From the IMG/VR virus record IMGVR_UViG_3300029448_000172, positions 1 to 21,188 of that record: 21,188 bases of DNA, one strand, 5' to 3'. Numbering within the stretch: the first letter of the stretch is position 1; every line of letters starts with the position of its first letter. The translations under genes and the position numbers were made by a program. Under the pieces are notes generated by a model, which ran no database searches, was not told where the DNA came from, and saw nothing but the letters and a program-made list of their open reading frames with translations. Of this stretch, positions 8,816 through 21,188 are shown piece by piece. The stretch comes from a virus.

Positions 8816-9148
8816 ATGTATACATTTTTAGAACAGCTTGACCAAGAGGGTAGAAAAAACTTTTTGGCTGACCACAACTTGAGATTTATTATGGACTACA
8901 ATCAAGACATAATACGTATGGCTTGTGCTTATGTAAAGTTTCGCATACACAAACAAAGAATAAACTTTGATTCTAATGTAGCAGACAGAGCAGGTATACT
9001 TGATTGGATCTGTAACAAATCTTATGAAGCAATGGATGAGTTGCGACCAAGAATAAGAAGACGAGATATGAATAAGTTATTGTTGGGTACGAGAACAATA
9101 GAAGATACTTATCGTAAACACTATATTGATAAGAAGGAGGAACTATGA
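8816..9148 (+). CDS. Unknown early protein
   Basis: 110 residues behind GGAGGT. It is mixed helical, with FLEQLDQEGRKNFLADHN at the start, a central AGILDWICNKSYEAMDELRPR and a basic RRRDMNKLLLG segment. I see no known motif or membrane segment. Its stop overlaps the ATG of the ArdC-like gene (ATGA-type), so the two are translated together, which hints at a shared function in early takeover of the cell. Confidence 0.7.
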   Translation: MYTFLEQLDQEGRKNFLADHNLRFIMDYNQDIIRMACAYVKFRIHKQRINFDSNVADRAGILDWICNKSYEAMDELRPRIRRRDMNKLLLGTRTIEDTYRKHYIDKKEEL

Positions 9149-10035
9149 ACTTAAATGAACTAGGACAAAAGAACTTAGATGAAATAGTAGAATCTATCGC
9201 AACTGATATGGAGAACCATGACGTAACCAAACCTTATGAACCAAGATGGGTAACTAAATTACATGGTAACATATTAGGTTACAAGTATACTGGCTTCAAT
9301 CAATTCCATTTGAACATGAAGTATGGTGACAGTACACCACTATGGGGAACTTACTTCCAGTACAACAAGTTAGGTTTACATCCAAGAAAAGGTACTGGCA
9401 AACCATTATGGCAACCAACTATACGGAAACAAAAAGATAAAAAGACTGGTGAAGAAAAAGTTATTCCTGGATTTAAAACCATAGCTATCTTTAACATTGA
9501 TGAAGTAGATGGTGATGGTGAAGTAATATACAATCTCAAAGACCAGTACTTACCTAAGACAAAGTATGCTAAGAATACAAACTATACTGAGATAGATAAT
9601 TGGATAGATAAACTTGATGCAACAATAGAACATGGCAGTAACATGGCTTGTTATATTCCAACATCAGATAAAATAAAGATGCCAATGTTTGATTCATTTA
9701 CAACAAGAGAGCATTACTATGCTACCTTGTTTCATGAGATAACACATTGGACAGGGCATAACAGTAGATGCAACAGAAAACTATCTGGTAAATATGGTGC
9801 ATCAGAGTATGCTTTCGAGGAACTTATAGCTGAACTTGGAGCAAGTTTCCATATGGCTAGTTGGAATTTATTTCACACTACCAGAATGGATCACGTACAC
9901 TACTTGAAGTCATGGGCTAAGGCTCTTAGAGATAAGCCAGACTCTCTACGTAAAGCTTGTAAGTATGCTAGTGAATCGTACTTCTACCTCCAACACGATT
10001 CACTAGGCAGTTTTGATAACGCAGTTAATAACTAA
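9145..10035 (+). CDS. ArdC-like antirestriction protein with zincin metallopeptidase domain
   Basis: 296 residues. The first 130 or so match the ArdC-type N-terminal ssDNA-binding domain (GYKYTGFNQFHLN, then WGTYFQYNKLGLHPRKGTG). The C-terminal half is a zincin peptidase with HEITH at residues 197-201 and a downstream FEELIAELGASF helix whose Glu is the likely third zinc ligand. This pairing is found in plasmid ArdC proteins, which protect incoming DNA against restriction, and in many phages. Early expression fits such a role. That it blocks restriction in this phage is inferred from family; the protease target is unknown in general. Confidence 0.85.
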   Translation: MNLNELGQKNLDEIVESIATDMENHDVTKPYEPRWVTKLHGNILGYKYTGFNQFHLNMKYGDSTPLWGTYFQYNKLGLHPRKGTGKPLWQPTIRKQKDKKTGEEKVIPGFKTIAIFNIDEVDGDGEVIYNLKDQYLPKTKYAKNTNYTEIDNWIDKLDATIEHGSNMACYIPTSDKIKMPMFDSFTTREHYYATLFHEITHWTGHNSRCNRKLSGKYGASEYAFEELIAELGASFHMASWNLFHTTRMDHVHYLKSWAKALRDKPDSLRKACKYASESYFYLQHDSLGSFDNAVNN

Positions 10036-16560: not shown

Positions 16561-17082
16561 TTAAGCAACTTTAAACCCACCAAAAAAACATGATTCATAA
16601 TACGTAGACATCCAGGGGGAATAAGAACTTTCATCTGAATTACAATATACTGCTAACCAATCACTACTTCCGTTCATTGCTACTACTGCTGAACAATACC
16701 CTGAGTGTTGTCTATCTCTAGTATAACCAGAACTTTGTTCGTTACCACTATACGACCAGCCAGTTACTATGGTACTAGAACTATTTTTATATACTTGAAT
16801 CCTAGTGTGATTAATTCTATCTGTTGTACCTCCATATATTTCTATATTACAATAGATATAATAATTACCAGCTACGTTTGGTGTAAACTTATATGTGCTA
16901 TTATCATAACAACTACCTACATTAGTTATCACTTCGTCTATTGGCATGATAACATATGTATTATCTGAAAAGTTATAGTCAGCACTTCTCCTTGCATGAA
17001 AGTAAGGTTGATTACTTGCACCAGCAGAAGCCTTTAATAACCCTGATTGTCTATCTGTATTAGATGCAACAATACCTGTCAT
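16561..17082 (-). CDS. C1q-like tail protein, copy 3
   Basis: 173 residues and the most diverged of three tandem paralogues. It starts MTGIVASN with SGLLKASAG, then has SCYDNSTYKFTPNVAGNYYIY, the hallmark of a C1q/TNF-type jelly roll (Y..ST.KFTP..AG.Y.I), and ends FFGGFKVA. Such domains sit at the tips of phage fibres or short tails and bind surface ligands. Its ATG overlaps the stop of copy 2 (ATGA). Several Cys residues are conserved among the copies. Receptor binding is inferred. Confidence 0.7.
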   Translation of the reverse strand: MTGIVASNTDRQSGLLKASAGASNQPYFHARRSADYNFSDNTYVIMPIDEVITNVGSCYDNSTYKFTPNVAGNYYIYCNIEIYGGTTDRINHTRIQVYKNSSSTIVTGWSYSGNEQSSGYTRDRQHSGYCSAVVAMNGSSDWLAVYCNSDESSYSPWMSTYYESCFFGGFKVA

Positions 17083-17630
17083 ATTTTATATCCTCCAAAG
17101 TATGAACCATAGTATGCTTGACCAGCACCCCACAACCTTGCATAACTAGATGTTTGGTTTACCTTACACCAACATTCTACATAATCTGAAGTACCATTAA
17201 ATTCTTTTACTCCTTGTATAATTATATGATGGTCTCTATCTCTATCATACCCATCACTTTGAAACCCAGCATCATATGAATCACTTGTCATTTGATATTC
17301 ATTGCCATTAAATCTAAGTTGAGCATCAAAAGTATCTCCTCTATCTTGATATTCTCCCATAAAACATTTAGCAAATATAAAATACTTACCAGCTTTGTTT
17401 GGTGTAAATCTATAATTAGAAGATGAATCATAACAACTATCTGTATCTATATATTCACCATTAAATGCACCTTTAGTCCAAACATTATCTGATAAAGCAG
17501 TAGAACATGAATCTCCACTACAATCTAAGGCTCCACGTTGAGCAAAAAATGCTGGTGTATTACCTCCAACTGGTATTGTTTTTATTAATCCTGATGTTAA
17601 TCCAATATTATTTGATATTATTCCTGACAT
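17079..17630 (-). CDS. C1q-like tail protein, copy 2
   Basis: 183 residues. It shares with copy 1 the N-terminal MSGIIS...SGLIK....GGNTPAFFA.RGA pattern, the middle SCYDSSSNYRFTPNKAGKYFIFAKC and the C-terminal FGGYKI ending. The conserved SGL(I/M)K start may be a docking segment onto a common tail part, and the jelly-roll region is likely to bind ligand. Equal length and same strand point to duplication within the operon, followed by divergence of the surface loops. Confidence 0.7.
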   Translation of the reverse strand: MSGIISNNIGLTSGLIKTIPVGGNTPAFFAQRGALDCSGDSCSTALSDNVWTKGAFNGEYIDTDSCYDSSSNYRFTPNKAGKYFIFAKCFMGEYQDRGDTFDAQLRFNGNEYQMTSDSYDAGFQSDGYDRDRDHHIIIQGVKEFNGTSDYVECWCKVNQTSSYARLWGAGQAYYGSYFGGYKI

Positions 17631-17632
17631 AA

Positions 17633-18184
17633 TTAACCTAATTTATATCCTAAAAATTGAGATGGTCTATACGTATTAGTATTGTTACCTCCAGCTATTA
17701 TAGGTAAACCAGTTGTTACATTTAATTTCCAATACACACTAACGTAATCAGATGTGCCATTAAAAGTTTGTATAATTGAACATCTTGACGTACATTCTGA
17801 ATCATAGGTATATCCACCACTTTGATTTCCTTCATGTGTAACACCAGCAATAACAGTAGAACCATTAAATCTTATTTCAAAAACACTATTTACAAATCTA
17901 TCTGTGTGACATCTAAGGTGACCTTGTGCAAATATAAAATAATCACCTGCTACATTAGGTGTAAACTTGTAAGTACTTGGATCATAACAACCATCACTAT
18001 CATATTCTTCGTGATTATATGCGGCAACTGCATAAGTATTGTCAGCTATTTGGTCTCTACAATTATCTCCAGAACAACTATCTGCTCCTCGATATGCACA
18101 AAAAGCTGGTGTGTTTCCTCCAGCAGATAGAGCCTTCATTAATCCTGAAGACCTTGATAATCCGGGTGCTATGATTCCTGACAT
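17633..18184 (-). CDS. C1q-like tail protein, copy 1
   Basis: 183 residues. The start MSGIIAPGLSRSSGLMKALS is followed by GGNTPAFCAYRGAD, then GCYDPSTYKFTPNVAGDYFIFAQ, and the protein ends FLGYKLG. This is the most upstream of the three paralogues. Together they occupy 1.6 kb directly downstream of the tail-fibre genes. Family evidence is the KFTPNVAG.Y.I strand motif and the C-terminal GYK strand, both typical of C1q-like domains. Exact virion location is unknown. Confidence 0.7.
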   Translation of the reverse strand: MSGIIAPGLSRSSGLMKALSAGGNTPAFCAYRGADSCSGDNCRDQIADNTYAVAAYNHEEYDSDGCYDPSTYKFTPNVAGDYFIFAQGHLRCHTDRFVNSVFEIRFNGSTVIAGVTHEGNQSGGYTYDSECTSRCSIIQTFNGTSDYVSVYWKLNVTTGLPIIAGGNNTNTYRPSQFLGYKLG

Positions 18185-19261: not shown

Positions 19262-21188
19262 TTACATTATACTTAAAGCACCATTGCCACTAATTGTCAA
19301 GACTGTACTACCACCACTTACAGTAATTGGTCCAAACAAAACACTATTCTTTGTATTAGCAGTAACTACACTAGCATTAGAACTTACTGTATTGTAGTTA
19401 CTAAACACATTACCAACAGTACTAATCTCACTTGCTTGTATTGTACTTAATGATAAAGTACCTGAGCCATCTGTAGTTAGTGCTTGACCTGCAGTACCAT
19501 CAGCAACTGGATAACTTAATCCATCTAGTACTACTTTACCTGAACCGTTAGGAGTAATGGCTATGTTACCATTACTTGTAGATACAATAGAATTTCCGTT
19601 AACATCAAGCGAACCTCCAAGTTGGGGAGTTCCATCCTGAACTATATCTGTTAAAGAACCTGCAACTATAGTTACCCAAGCAGATCCATTATAATATTTT
19701 AATACATTTGCTGTACTATTGTATGCTAAATCTCCTTCATCTAATGATGCAGTAGGATCACTACTACCTACTCTGTATCTTTGTGCAAAACTATTTACTT
19801 CTCCTATATTACTAGCAACCACATTAATGTTAGAAGTTTCTACTGTAATAACATTACCCATGCCATTACCATGTGTAGTACAATAATACTTTAATGAAGA
19901 TGGTGCATCCGAAGGAACAACAAATGTAGTCTTTGCTCCAGCACTTCCCGGAGTTCCTGATGCTGTTACACCTGTCGTATAACTTGCATCTGCACTTGTT
20001 CTAAATGCTATTGGATGTGAACTATTACTAGAATCACTTTGGTCAAACACATATGTGTTACCTCTTATTAATGTAATAGCTGGATTACCTGTACCATCTA
20101 AATAAAATACATTACCAGAACCACCACCATATAATGTTCCACTTGCTACTGTAACTGCATAGTTTGTAGTAGATGCAAGAGCATTTACAAGTGAAGTAAC
20201 ATCAGAACTAATACCAGCTAGTGTTGTGATGTTTGCACTAATACCAGCAAGAGTTGTTATATTAGAATTTTGCCCAGCTAATGTTGTTATATTGCTGTTG
20301 TTTCCTGCTACTGTAGTAACATTACTAGCTATACCAGCTACAGTAGTTATGTTACTAGCTATTCCTGCTACTGTACCAATATTGCTATTAGCACCAGCAA
20401 CAGTTGCTATGTTACCTACTACACCTGATGCACCTAATGTTGCCATATTCGTTACATTTGCTGAAGTAGCTAGTAGATTTAAGTCTGTTACTATATCACT
20501 TGTAGCTAATTGATTTAGATCTGAAACTATGTCAGACGTAGCTAATGTATTTAGGTCGCTAACTATATCAGATGTTGCTAATGTATTTAAGTCTGTAACA
20601 ATATCTGAAGTAGCTAATGTATTAATATCATTTATTACATCTGTGACTGCTAATGTATTTAAGTCACTTACAAAATCAGAAGTTATCAAACTTGCTTTAG
20701 CGGCAACGGAAGTTATTTCAGAAGATTTACCTGCTACTGTAGTAATATTACTTGAAATTCCTGCAACAGTAGTTACGTTACTTGCTATACCACTTACAGT
20801 AGTTACATTTGCAGATATACCTGCTATTGTTGTAACATCTGTTGCACTTATAGTAGTTGCTACATTACCACTACCATCAAATGTTAAAACTTTACTTGCT
20901 CTAGTTGCTGATACTGGTAAAGTAAGTGTGGCACTTGCATCATCATCAGATAGTCTTATTGACCTTGCTATCTCATCTTCTCTTTCACCCATCATAGCAA
21001 CCATTTTGTCTAAATCTGTATTTAAACTTTCAATAACAAACGGTCCTGATGAAGGAAAATCTGTTGTTCTTGCTACTGGAATATCTCTTACTATAGTTAT
21101 AATGTCACCAGCAGATGCACCACTACCACCTAATACAACATTACCACCACCTGTTACTCCTGCACCTGTAACTGAATATTGTGTTGCT
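19262..21188 (-). CDS. T7-type tail fibre protein (N-terminus beyond window edge)
   Basis: At least 641 residues in this window; the frame is open to the right edge, so the Met at 21004 is internal. The first visible part, GDIITIVRDIPVARTTDF followed by FVIESLNTDLDKMVAM and AR-IRL, is the end of the T7 gp17-like N-terminal domain that joins the fibre to the tail. A long repeat region follows: 10-residue NITTVAGI.S units and 12-residue TSDIVSDLNTLA units. After it (20110-19850) comes a cupredoxin-like domain with all four type-1 copper ligand residues, then a DGTPQLGGSLDVNG module and a C-terminal beta region. It would recognise the host surface. Confidence 0.85.
   Translation of the reverse strand, partial: ATQYSVTGAGVTGGGNVVLGGSGASAGDIITIVRDIPVARTTDFPSSGPFVIESLNTDLDKMVAMMGEREDEIARSIRLSDDDASATLTLPVSATRASKVLTFDGSGNVATTISATDVTTIAGISANVTTVSGIASNVTTVAGISSNITTVAGKSSEITSVAAKASLITSDFVSDLNTLAVTDVINDINTLATSDIVTDLNTLATSDIVSDLNTLATSDIVSDLNQLATSDIVTDLNLLATSANVTNMATLGASGVVGNIATVAGANSNIGTVAGIASNITTVAGIASNVTTVAGNNSNITTLAGQNSNITTLAGISANITTLAGISSDVTSLVNALASTTNYAVTVASGTLYGGGSGNVFYLDGTGNPAITLIRGNTYVFDQSDSSNSSHPIAFRTSADASYTTGVTASGTPGSAGAKTTFVVPSDAPSSLKYYCTTHGNGMGNVITVETSNINVVASNIGEVNSFAQRYRVGSSDPTASLDEGDLAYNSTANVLKYYNGSAWVTIVAGSLTDIVQDGTPQLGGSLDVNGNSIVSTSNGNIAITPNGSGKVVLDGLSYPVADGTAGQALTTDGSGTLSLSTIQASEISTVGNVFSNYNTVSSNASVVTANTKNSVLFGPITVSGGSTVLTISGNGALSIM
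20467..20695 (-). repeat. 36-base tandem repeats within the tail fibre
   Basis: About six degenerate 36-base units coding the 12-residue unit TSDIV(T/S)DLN(T/Q/L)LA. The amino acids are better conserved than the bases. Flanking them, at about 20200-20400 and 20720-20840, lie 30-base units coding N(I/V)TT(V/L)AG.(A/S)S. Confidence 0.8.

Follow-up and report, generated by a model that had tools for sequence, protein, structure and literature searches.

The fibre gene and its surroundings

The window analysed here, that is, the whole stretch of 21,188 nucleotides, covers positions 1 to 21,188 of the IMG/VR virus record IMGVR_UViG_3300029448_000172, a virus contig of 34,792 bases. On its minus strand, with the 5' end open at the window edge, lies a tail-fibre open frame of 641 residues (19262..21187) that matched the tail-fibre PHROGs phrog_21412 (E 3.2e-26) and phrog_30742 (E 1.5e-22). 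The fibre frame of a relative (L002) has 701 residues, with 96.9% identity across all 641 residues present in the window. Given this longer frame and the open edge, the Met at 21004, from which the initial annotation had numbered its residues, is not the gene start; the true one is unreadable because a run of N interrupts the gene just past the window end (near 2385-2426 of locus L192).

The fibre can be divided into four parts, all on the minus strand. The N-terminal region (residues 2-64, 20996..21184) matched the tail protein family phrog_1640 (E 4.8e-13). It is followed by a repetitive shaft read from the sequence (residues 65-339, 20171..20995), with short repeats of the type NITTVAGISS, then by a cupredoxin domain (residues 340-453, 19829..20170), delimited by AlphaFold2, by Foldseek and VIA-align and by a family profile, and finally by a C-terminal part (residues 454-641 plus the stop, 19262..19828), recognized from the sequence and from comparison with the fibre of the Pelagibacter phage EXVC031P Hodr. 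The bounds first given for the domain, 19850-20110, fall within it, but the folded unit is wider. The idea that a copper site could stabilize the fibre tip finds no support, as the domain sits in the middle of the fibre, and downstream of it come more fibre sequence and then small tail genes; its position, 340-453 of 641, led us to reject it as the tip. Also downstream of the fibre there are three tandem look-alike proteins of ~180 residues (16561-17082, 17079-17630 and 17633-18184, minus strand), beginning MTGIVAS, MSGIISN and MSGIIAP, two of which gave weak matches to tail proteins (phrog_15750 / phrog_13286). These appear to be better candidates for the host-recognition tip than the cupredoxin domain.

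The terminase matched 34 records, with that of Hodr at the top (64.6% identity), a likeness from which we infer a SAR11-type host. The GenBank records of this phage and of Baldr have apparently had their locus tags swapped, OQ414635.1 (Hodr) bearing EXVC032PBaldr tags and OQ414636.1 (Baldr) bearing EXVC031PHodr tags. Elsewhere in the window (9145-10035, plus strand) there is a protein with a zinc-peptidase-like motif, HEITHWTGH, which we take to resemble ArdC-type antirestriction proteins.

Predicted fold of the domain

Structure prediction, one of the checks proposed in the initial annotation, bore out its claim of a cupredoxin-like domain in a tail fibre. The AlphaFold2 model, built with 63 family members, has nine strands, a pLDDT of 97.7 and a pTM of 0.90. 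All 50 Foldseek matches listed from the PDB were cupredoxin-fold proteins by name (six of them at E <= 0.001), namely nitrite reductases, multicopper oxidases, laccases, bilirubin oxidase and SufI, and VIA-align superposed the model on residues 26-134 of the nitrite reductase 2dv6 with a Z of 9.3 (2.6 A over 100 residues). By these three methods the domain is predicted to be a Greek-key beta-sandwich of ~100 residues, as in the cupredoxin superfamily. In cupredoxins a His just before a strand is followed by a Cys at the end of another strand and then by a His and a Met. The model has this layout, with the first His (domain residue 52) just ahead of strand 54-58, the Cys (domain residue 97) closing strand 92-97, and beyond this strand the other His and then the Met. 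The domain is thus confidently predicted to fold like the small copper proteins.

Sequence relationship to known cupredoxins

The family profile recognized the window domain with an E of 1.0e-48, but single-sequence searches revealed little of the relationship. Pfam gave no cupredoxin match on the whole fibre and, on the domain, no match of any kind at E <= 1, PF00127 included; TIGR02656 (plastocyanin) reached E 0.057, with 13.8 bits against a cut-off of 87.85, so that neither curated plastocyanin cut-off was attained by the window domain. With phmmer, the domain found only chance matches in the PDB, the best plastocyanin being at a non-significant E of 0.63. Among the 63 members of the main family profile (A2), eight matched Copper-bind in Pfam (best E 0.0092), and when this model was run alone it marked five family copies, under its cut-off. 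Four of the 63 also weakly matched PF25489, the At5g54830-like domain (best E 0.0028), and a eukaryotic relative of the domain may therefore exist. The A2 profile itself had 17 matches in the PDB up to E 10, with an Fc receptor-like protein at the top (0.023) and copper proteins only from 0.13 to 1.2, and hhalign detected no link between A2 and the plastocyanin PetE of phages (5% probability).

The connection became visible through divergent copies in structural proteins of cyanophages. One of them (L250) matched PF13473 (E 7.9e-4) and PF00127 (2.5e-3), both under the cut-offs, as well as the PDB cupredoxin 4hcf (E 7.9e-4), and another copy (L245) matched plastocyanin 1b3i (E 0.0018). A second profile of ten members (A4), composed of the window domain and nine divergent copies, retrieved 46 sequences from the PDB with E <= 0.01, every one a cupredoxin by name and the best at E 3e-7, a result favoured by the choice of the nine after some had been seen to resemble cupredoxins, even if all had first been found by A2 alone. 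The matches carried the names of amicyanin, plastocyanin, rusticyanin, auracyanin, copper nitrite reductase or cytochrome oxidase subunit 2, and in the five alignments shown the motif Cys and His fell on those of the PDB cupredoxins. Against phage PetE, A4 gave an hhalign probability of 88% (E 3e-6). These sequence comparisons point to a significant link between the family and known cupredoxins by way of the divergent cyanophage copies, with the weak A2 results speaking against it.

Conservation of the putative ligands

In the window copy the residues that would hold the metal, assigned from sequence and conservation and all encoded on the minus strand, are His391 (codon at 20015..20017), the putative thiolate ligand Cys436 (19880..19882), His439 (19871..19873) and the putative axial ligand Met443 (19859..19861). 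Counted from the Met at 21004 they are the His330, Cys375, His378 and Met382 of the initial annotation, and the peptide lies in frame on the minus strand. Both order and spacing had been likened to those of plastocyanin; the order His/Cys/His/Met is indeed the same, but the spacing here is Cys-x2-His-x3-Met and plastocyanin has x4 ahead of the Met.

We searched 177 loci with the family profile, and the 202 matches, once identical or overlapping stretches were merged, amounted to 135 distinct copies, 125 of which have all four residues. Among the other ten, two are Asp/Cys/His/Met, with Asp for the first His and the rest kept (three loci, L117, L121 and L122), one is cut by a contig end past the second His, one is Asn/Ala/Thr/Leu, and six aligned in their first part only, without the Cys half. 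The members of A2 had been chosen by a pattern that requires the Cys and a Met-Gly, so copies without them are under-counted. A second set came from 21 named phage records, every one of which matched (73 matches, merged into 58 distinct copies). The first His was found in 37/37 of the copies with Cys-x2-His-x2/3-Met (or Gln) and in 4/21 of those without this motif, L219, in which a His sits one column off, being scored as lacking it. The corresponding Fisher p is 3e-11, with related copies (many of them orthologues) counted as independent, so that there are fewer independent events behind it. Copies missing just one of the four residues are rare, a rarity for which the selection pattern of A2 does not account. 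As far as sequences go, the comparison shows that the four residues are mostly retained together or missing together and, in the survey of relatives that the initial annotation had proposed, they do not vary freely.

This behaviour bears on the possibility that the domain holds no metal and is just a structural spacer, as Ig-like domains are in virions, its four residues being relics or having a structural role. The 21 of 58 distinct copies (from 21 records) without Cys/His/Met are still in virion proteins, from which it follows that the fold is useful without metal, and a profile made from ligand-bearing copies under-counts precisely these. However, relics would be lost singly, and here the residues come and go together while the domain outside the ligands drifts to about 35% identity. 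We consider a mere spacer quite improbable. The ligand-less copies of named phages form recurrent sets, in frames of ~490 residues and in frames of > 6,000 residues (e.g., L226, L227, L231, L234, L240; L230, L242-L244), which suggests a few old losses.

The details around the ligands are not those of plastocyanin. The Met spacing could be measured in 127 of the 135 copies (eight were not measurable) and was x2 in 68 and x3 in 59; in the 37 named-phage copies it was x2 in 36 and x3 in one. The plastocyanin spacing, Cys-x2-His-x4-Met, occurred in 0/127. After the first His, the 125 ligand-complete copies have Pro in 109 and Asn in none, and Pro is never found two positions past the Cys (0/125). 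For comparison, five phage PetE plastocyanins (from five of the 11 records that have one) have Asn after the first His in 5/5 and the motif C-x-P-H-K-G-A-G-M. The Asn after the first His provides a backbone NH to the Cys sulphur in plastocyanin and amicyanin, and is not universal in cupredoxins. If copper is bound, the Cys sulphur would have other hydrogen bonds than in plastocyanin. Of the traits of a type-1 copper site, then, the domain has the ligand order His...Cys-xn-His-xn-Met/Gln and lacks the Asn after His. When the ten-member profile (A4) was aligned to amicyanin, its four ligand columns coincided with the His, Cys, His and Met of that protein, which bears only indirectly on the other refuting outcome of the initial annotation, a predicted structure with the four residues apart.

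These departures from plastocyanin and amicyanin are also what could be expected if the site held another metal (zinc, iron or nickel) or were a thiol/redox site, the fold having been reused and copper not being physiological. Two His with a Cys and a Met in this order are, on the other hand, the pattern that the matched proteins have at their copper sites. Besides, one copy (L218, P-RSM6 87715-88113) reads Cys-His-His-His-Thr-Gly-Gln, with Gln in the axial place of the Met, and such a Gln replaces the axial Met in stellacyanin. That tail proteins can hold other metals is illustrated by phage T4, in which HxH motifs at the tips of the fibres bind iron according to passages of PMC11705849. Weighing these points, we find a site for something other than copper unlikely, and the domain probably competent for copper binding. 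As fibres are rich in repeats and have a biased composition, a chance motif in a low-complexity protein was contemplated too. We excluded it, its likelihood being practically negligible in view of the confident AlphaFold2 fold, the hundreds of relatives and the residue conservation (125/135 copies ligand-complete).

A module shared by unrelated tail proteins

The domain, which the initial annotation had described in a tail fibre, is not specific to fibres: other phages have the same module in proteins of the baseplate and of the tail. It is carried by gp9 and the next protein in both P-SSM4 and ACG-2014d, by gp7 in P-HM2, and by the tail fibres of Melnitz-3, HTVC028P and Baldr; the carriers include podovirus fibres, T4-like gp9 and gp7 and, in Hodr, another tail protein. 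In the PDB, the gp9 of ACG-2014d matched T4-type gp10 and gp9 only by its N-terminal 90 residues. We compared the window fibre with 29 frames from the 80 IMG/VR loci kept. Fifteen of them (L002-L016, a few truncated at contig ends) align over most of their length and L018 in the larger part. In 13 (L021, L023, L025, L032, L033, L037, L039, L044, L048, L049, L054, L063 and L078) the alignment is confined to the domain, with at most some 20 adjoining residues. A few loci (L036, L041, L043, L083, L108, L118) have two or three cupredoxin domains, some in tandem.

The nearest isolate, Hodr, gives the converse picture. Its fibre (349 residues) aligns to residues 1-153 (51.5% identity), 239-323 and 475-504 of the window fibre and has no cupredoxin domain; a complete copy, with the His and then Cys-x2-His-x2-Met, is found in another tail protein, read as two halves since the record begins inside it. 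Judging by the order of the genes and by how the sequence looks, we take the phrog_376 tail protein as the counterpart of this carrier in the window's record, where the family profile found no second copy of the domain. Alignments of this kind show the domain to be a mobile virion module, present in marine phages in tail proteins unrelated to one another. That the carrier changes while the four residues stay suggests that the domain has a function of its own.

Distribution

With tblastn, the domain was detected in 325-328 of 50,697 phage records, whose names start with Synechococcus, Cyanophage, Prochlorococcus, Marine, Methylophilales, Pelagibacter, "phage" or "uncultured". Two scans of IMG/VR provided 294 and 173 candidate stretches, of which the best 80 of 294 and the best 80 of 173 were kept, and 84,980 species genomes provided nine loci, mostly in metagenome-assembled genomes with marine-type names. 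One of these nine, on a contig of 9,584 bases, coincides in size and range with an IMG/VR viral contig. As a yardstick we used the N-terminal part of cyanophage gp9, which was found in 394 records including 40 of Escherichia, 24 of Aeromonas, 12 of Acinetobacter and 8 of Microcystis phages; none of these groups is among the records matched by the domain. The family profile had no match at E <= 1 in six non-marine controls (Microcystis LMM01, RB49, phiAS4, AB-Navy71, BcepC6B and Microcystis Mwe-JY08), nor in the marine MEP301, and in the same test Hodr gave one match, in two pieces. From the gp9 groups missing from the domain list and the six empty controls, which are a small set, the module seems to be specific to marine phages.

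Another possible reading of the domain is that it is an electron-transfer protein for host photosynthesis or respiration, i.e., a metabolic gene of the plastocyanin kind. The faint likeness to TIGR02656 could be read in this way, and many cyanophages do carry a real petE according to passages of PMC3037559. However, the domain is within a fibre polypeptide, the nearest isolate infects Pelagibacter, and 11 of the 21 named phage records hold, besides the domain, a separate plastocyanin above Pfam's cut-off. To our knowledge, Pelagibacter has no photosystem to serve. We have rejected the metabolic reading, which seems highly improbable, on account of the separate plastocyanin in those 11 records.

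A putative copper-binding module on marine virions

On balance we favour the view that the domain is a mobile cupredoxin module on the virion that binds copper and has an accessory surface role. Each copy would hold one copper ion by its His/Cys/His/Met. The cytoplasm, where tails assemble, has almost no free copper, and because of this loading would most likely take place after lysis. The bound ion would then fix the Cys-His-Met loop, and the module would give the tail an accessory surface or binding domain, in contact with the host surface, rather than an electron carrier. This contact might involve copper-handling sites of the host, although it is speculative that the host's copper handling serves adsorption. 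The recurrence of one domain and its copper-holding residues in diverse tail components of many ocean phages suggests that their virions putatively carry copper. A broader version, in which several lineages of marine tailed phages have copper-loaded cupredoxin modules, with tens of copper sites on each virion divided among fibres, connectors of the baseplate and tail proteins, adsorb by way of host copper handling and make their virions part of the ocean's pool of strong copper ligands, is one that we hold only tentatively and regard as doubtful.

If the module does bind copper, abundant marine phages, such as those of SAR11, Prochlorococcus and Synechococcus, would be metalloprotein particles in waters where free copper is scarce, and phage adsorption would be tied to trace-metal supply. 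A metal-binding fold would join the add-on domains already known from phage tails, and annotators would gain a name for gp7, gp9 and fibre parts that now go as "structural" or "hypothetical".

Comparison with known systems

The closest resemblance is with the add-on cupredoxins of nitrite reductases. Residues 26-134 of 2dv6 are the best fold match, and the C-terminal domains of 9cck and 6hbe were matched by sequence, the best A4 match showing Cys-x2-His-x2-Met in YICTLHPWMKG. There, as in the phages, a cupredoxin is an addition to a larger protein, but in one case the protein is an enzyme and in the other a tail component of the virion; in addition, the first His is mostly followed by Pro in the phage domain and by Thr in the aligned domain of 9cck. 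Amicyanin has the Cys-x2-His-x2-Met spacing of the 68 x2 copies (the window copy being x3), together with His-Asn and Cys-x-Pro-His, both absent from the phage domain. Plastocyanin, including phage PetE, shares the ligand order, differing in its x4 spacing, in its His-Asn and Cys-x-Pro-His, and in being a free soluble protein.

Ig-like domains are beta-sandwich additions to varied phage virion proteins; they resemble the module in type of fold and manner of attachment and have no conserved set of metal ligands. We found no description of cupredoxin domains in phage virion proteins in the literature searched (mostly open-access journal articles), and the passages of PMC3037559 and PMC2984593 that discuss petE do not mention this domain. 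The nearest idea that we found in print is in passages of PMC11705849, where the HxH iron sites of T4 gp37 are discussed along with the Trojan or Ferrojan horse, which proposes a tie between metal sites in the tail and metal uptake by the host. Those sites and the phage cupredoxin have in common that tail proteins provide metal ligands, and they differ in fold, ligands and metal and in that the gp37 sites are at the fibre tip (PMC11705849). If copper-loaded modules on virions were used to adsorb by way of host copper handling, they would represent a copper counterpart of the Ferrojan horse.
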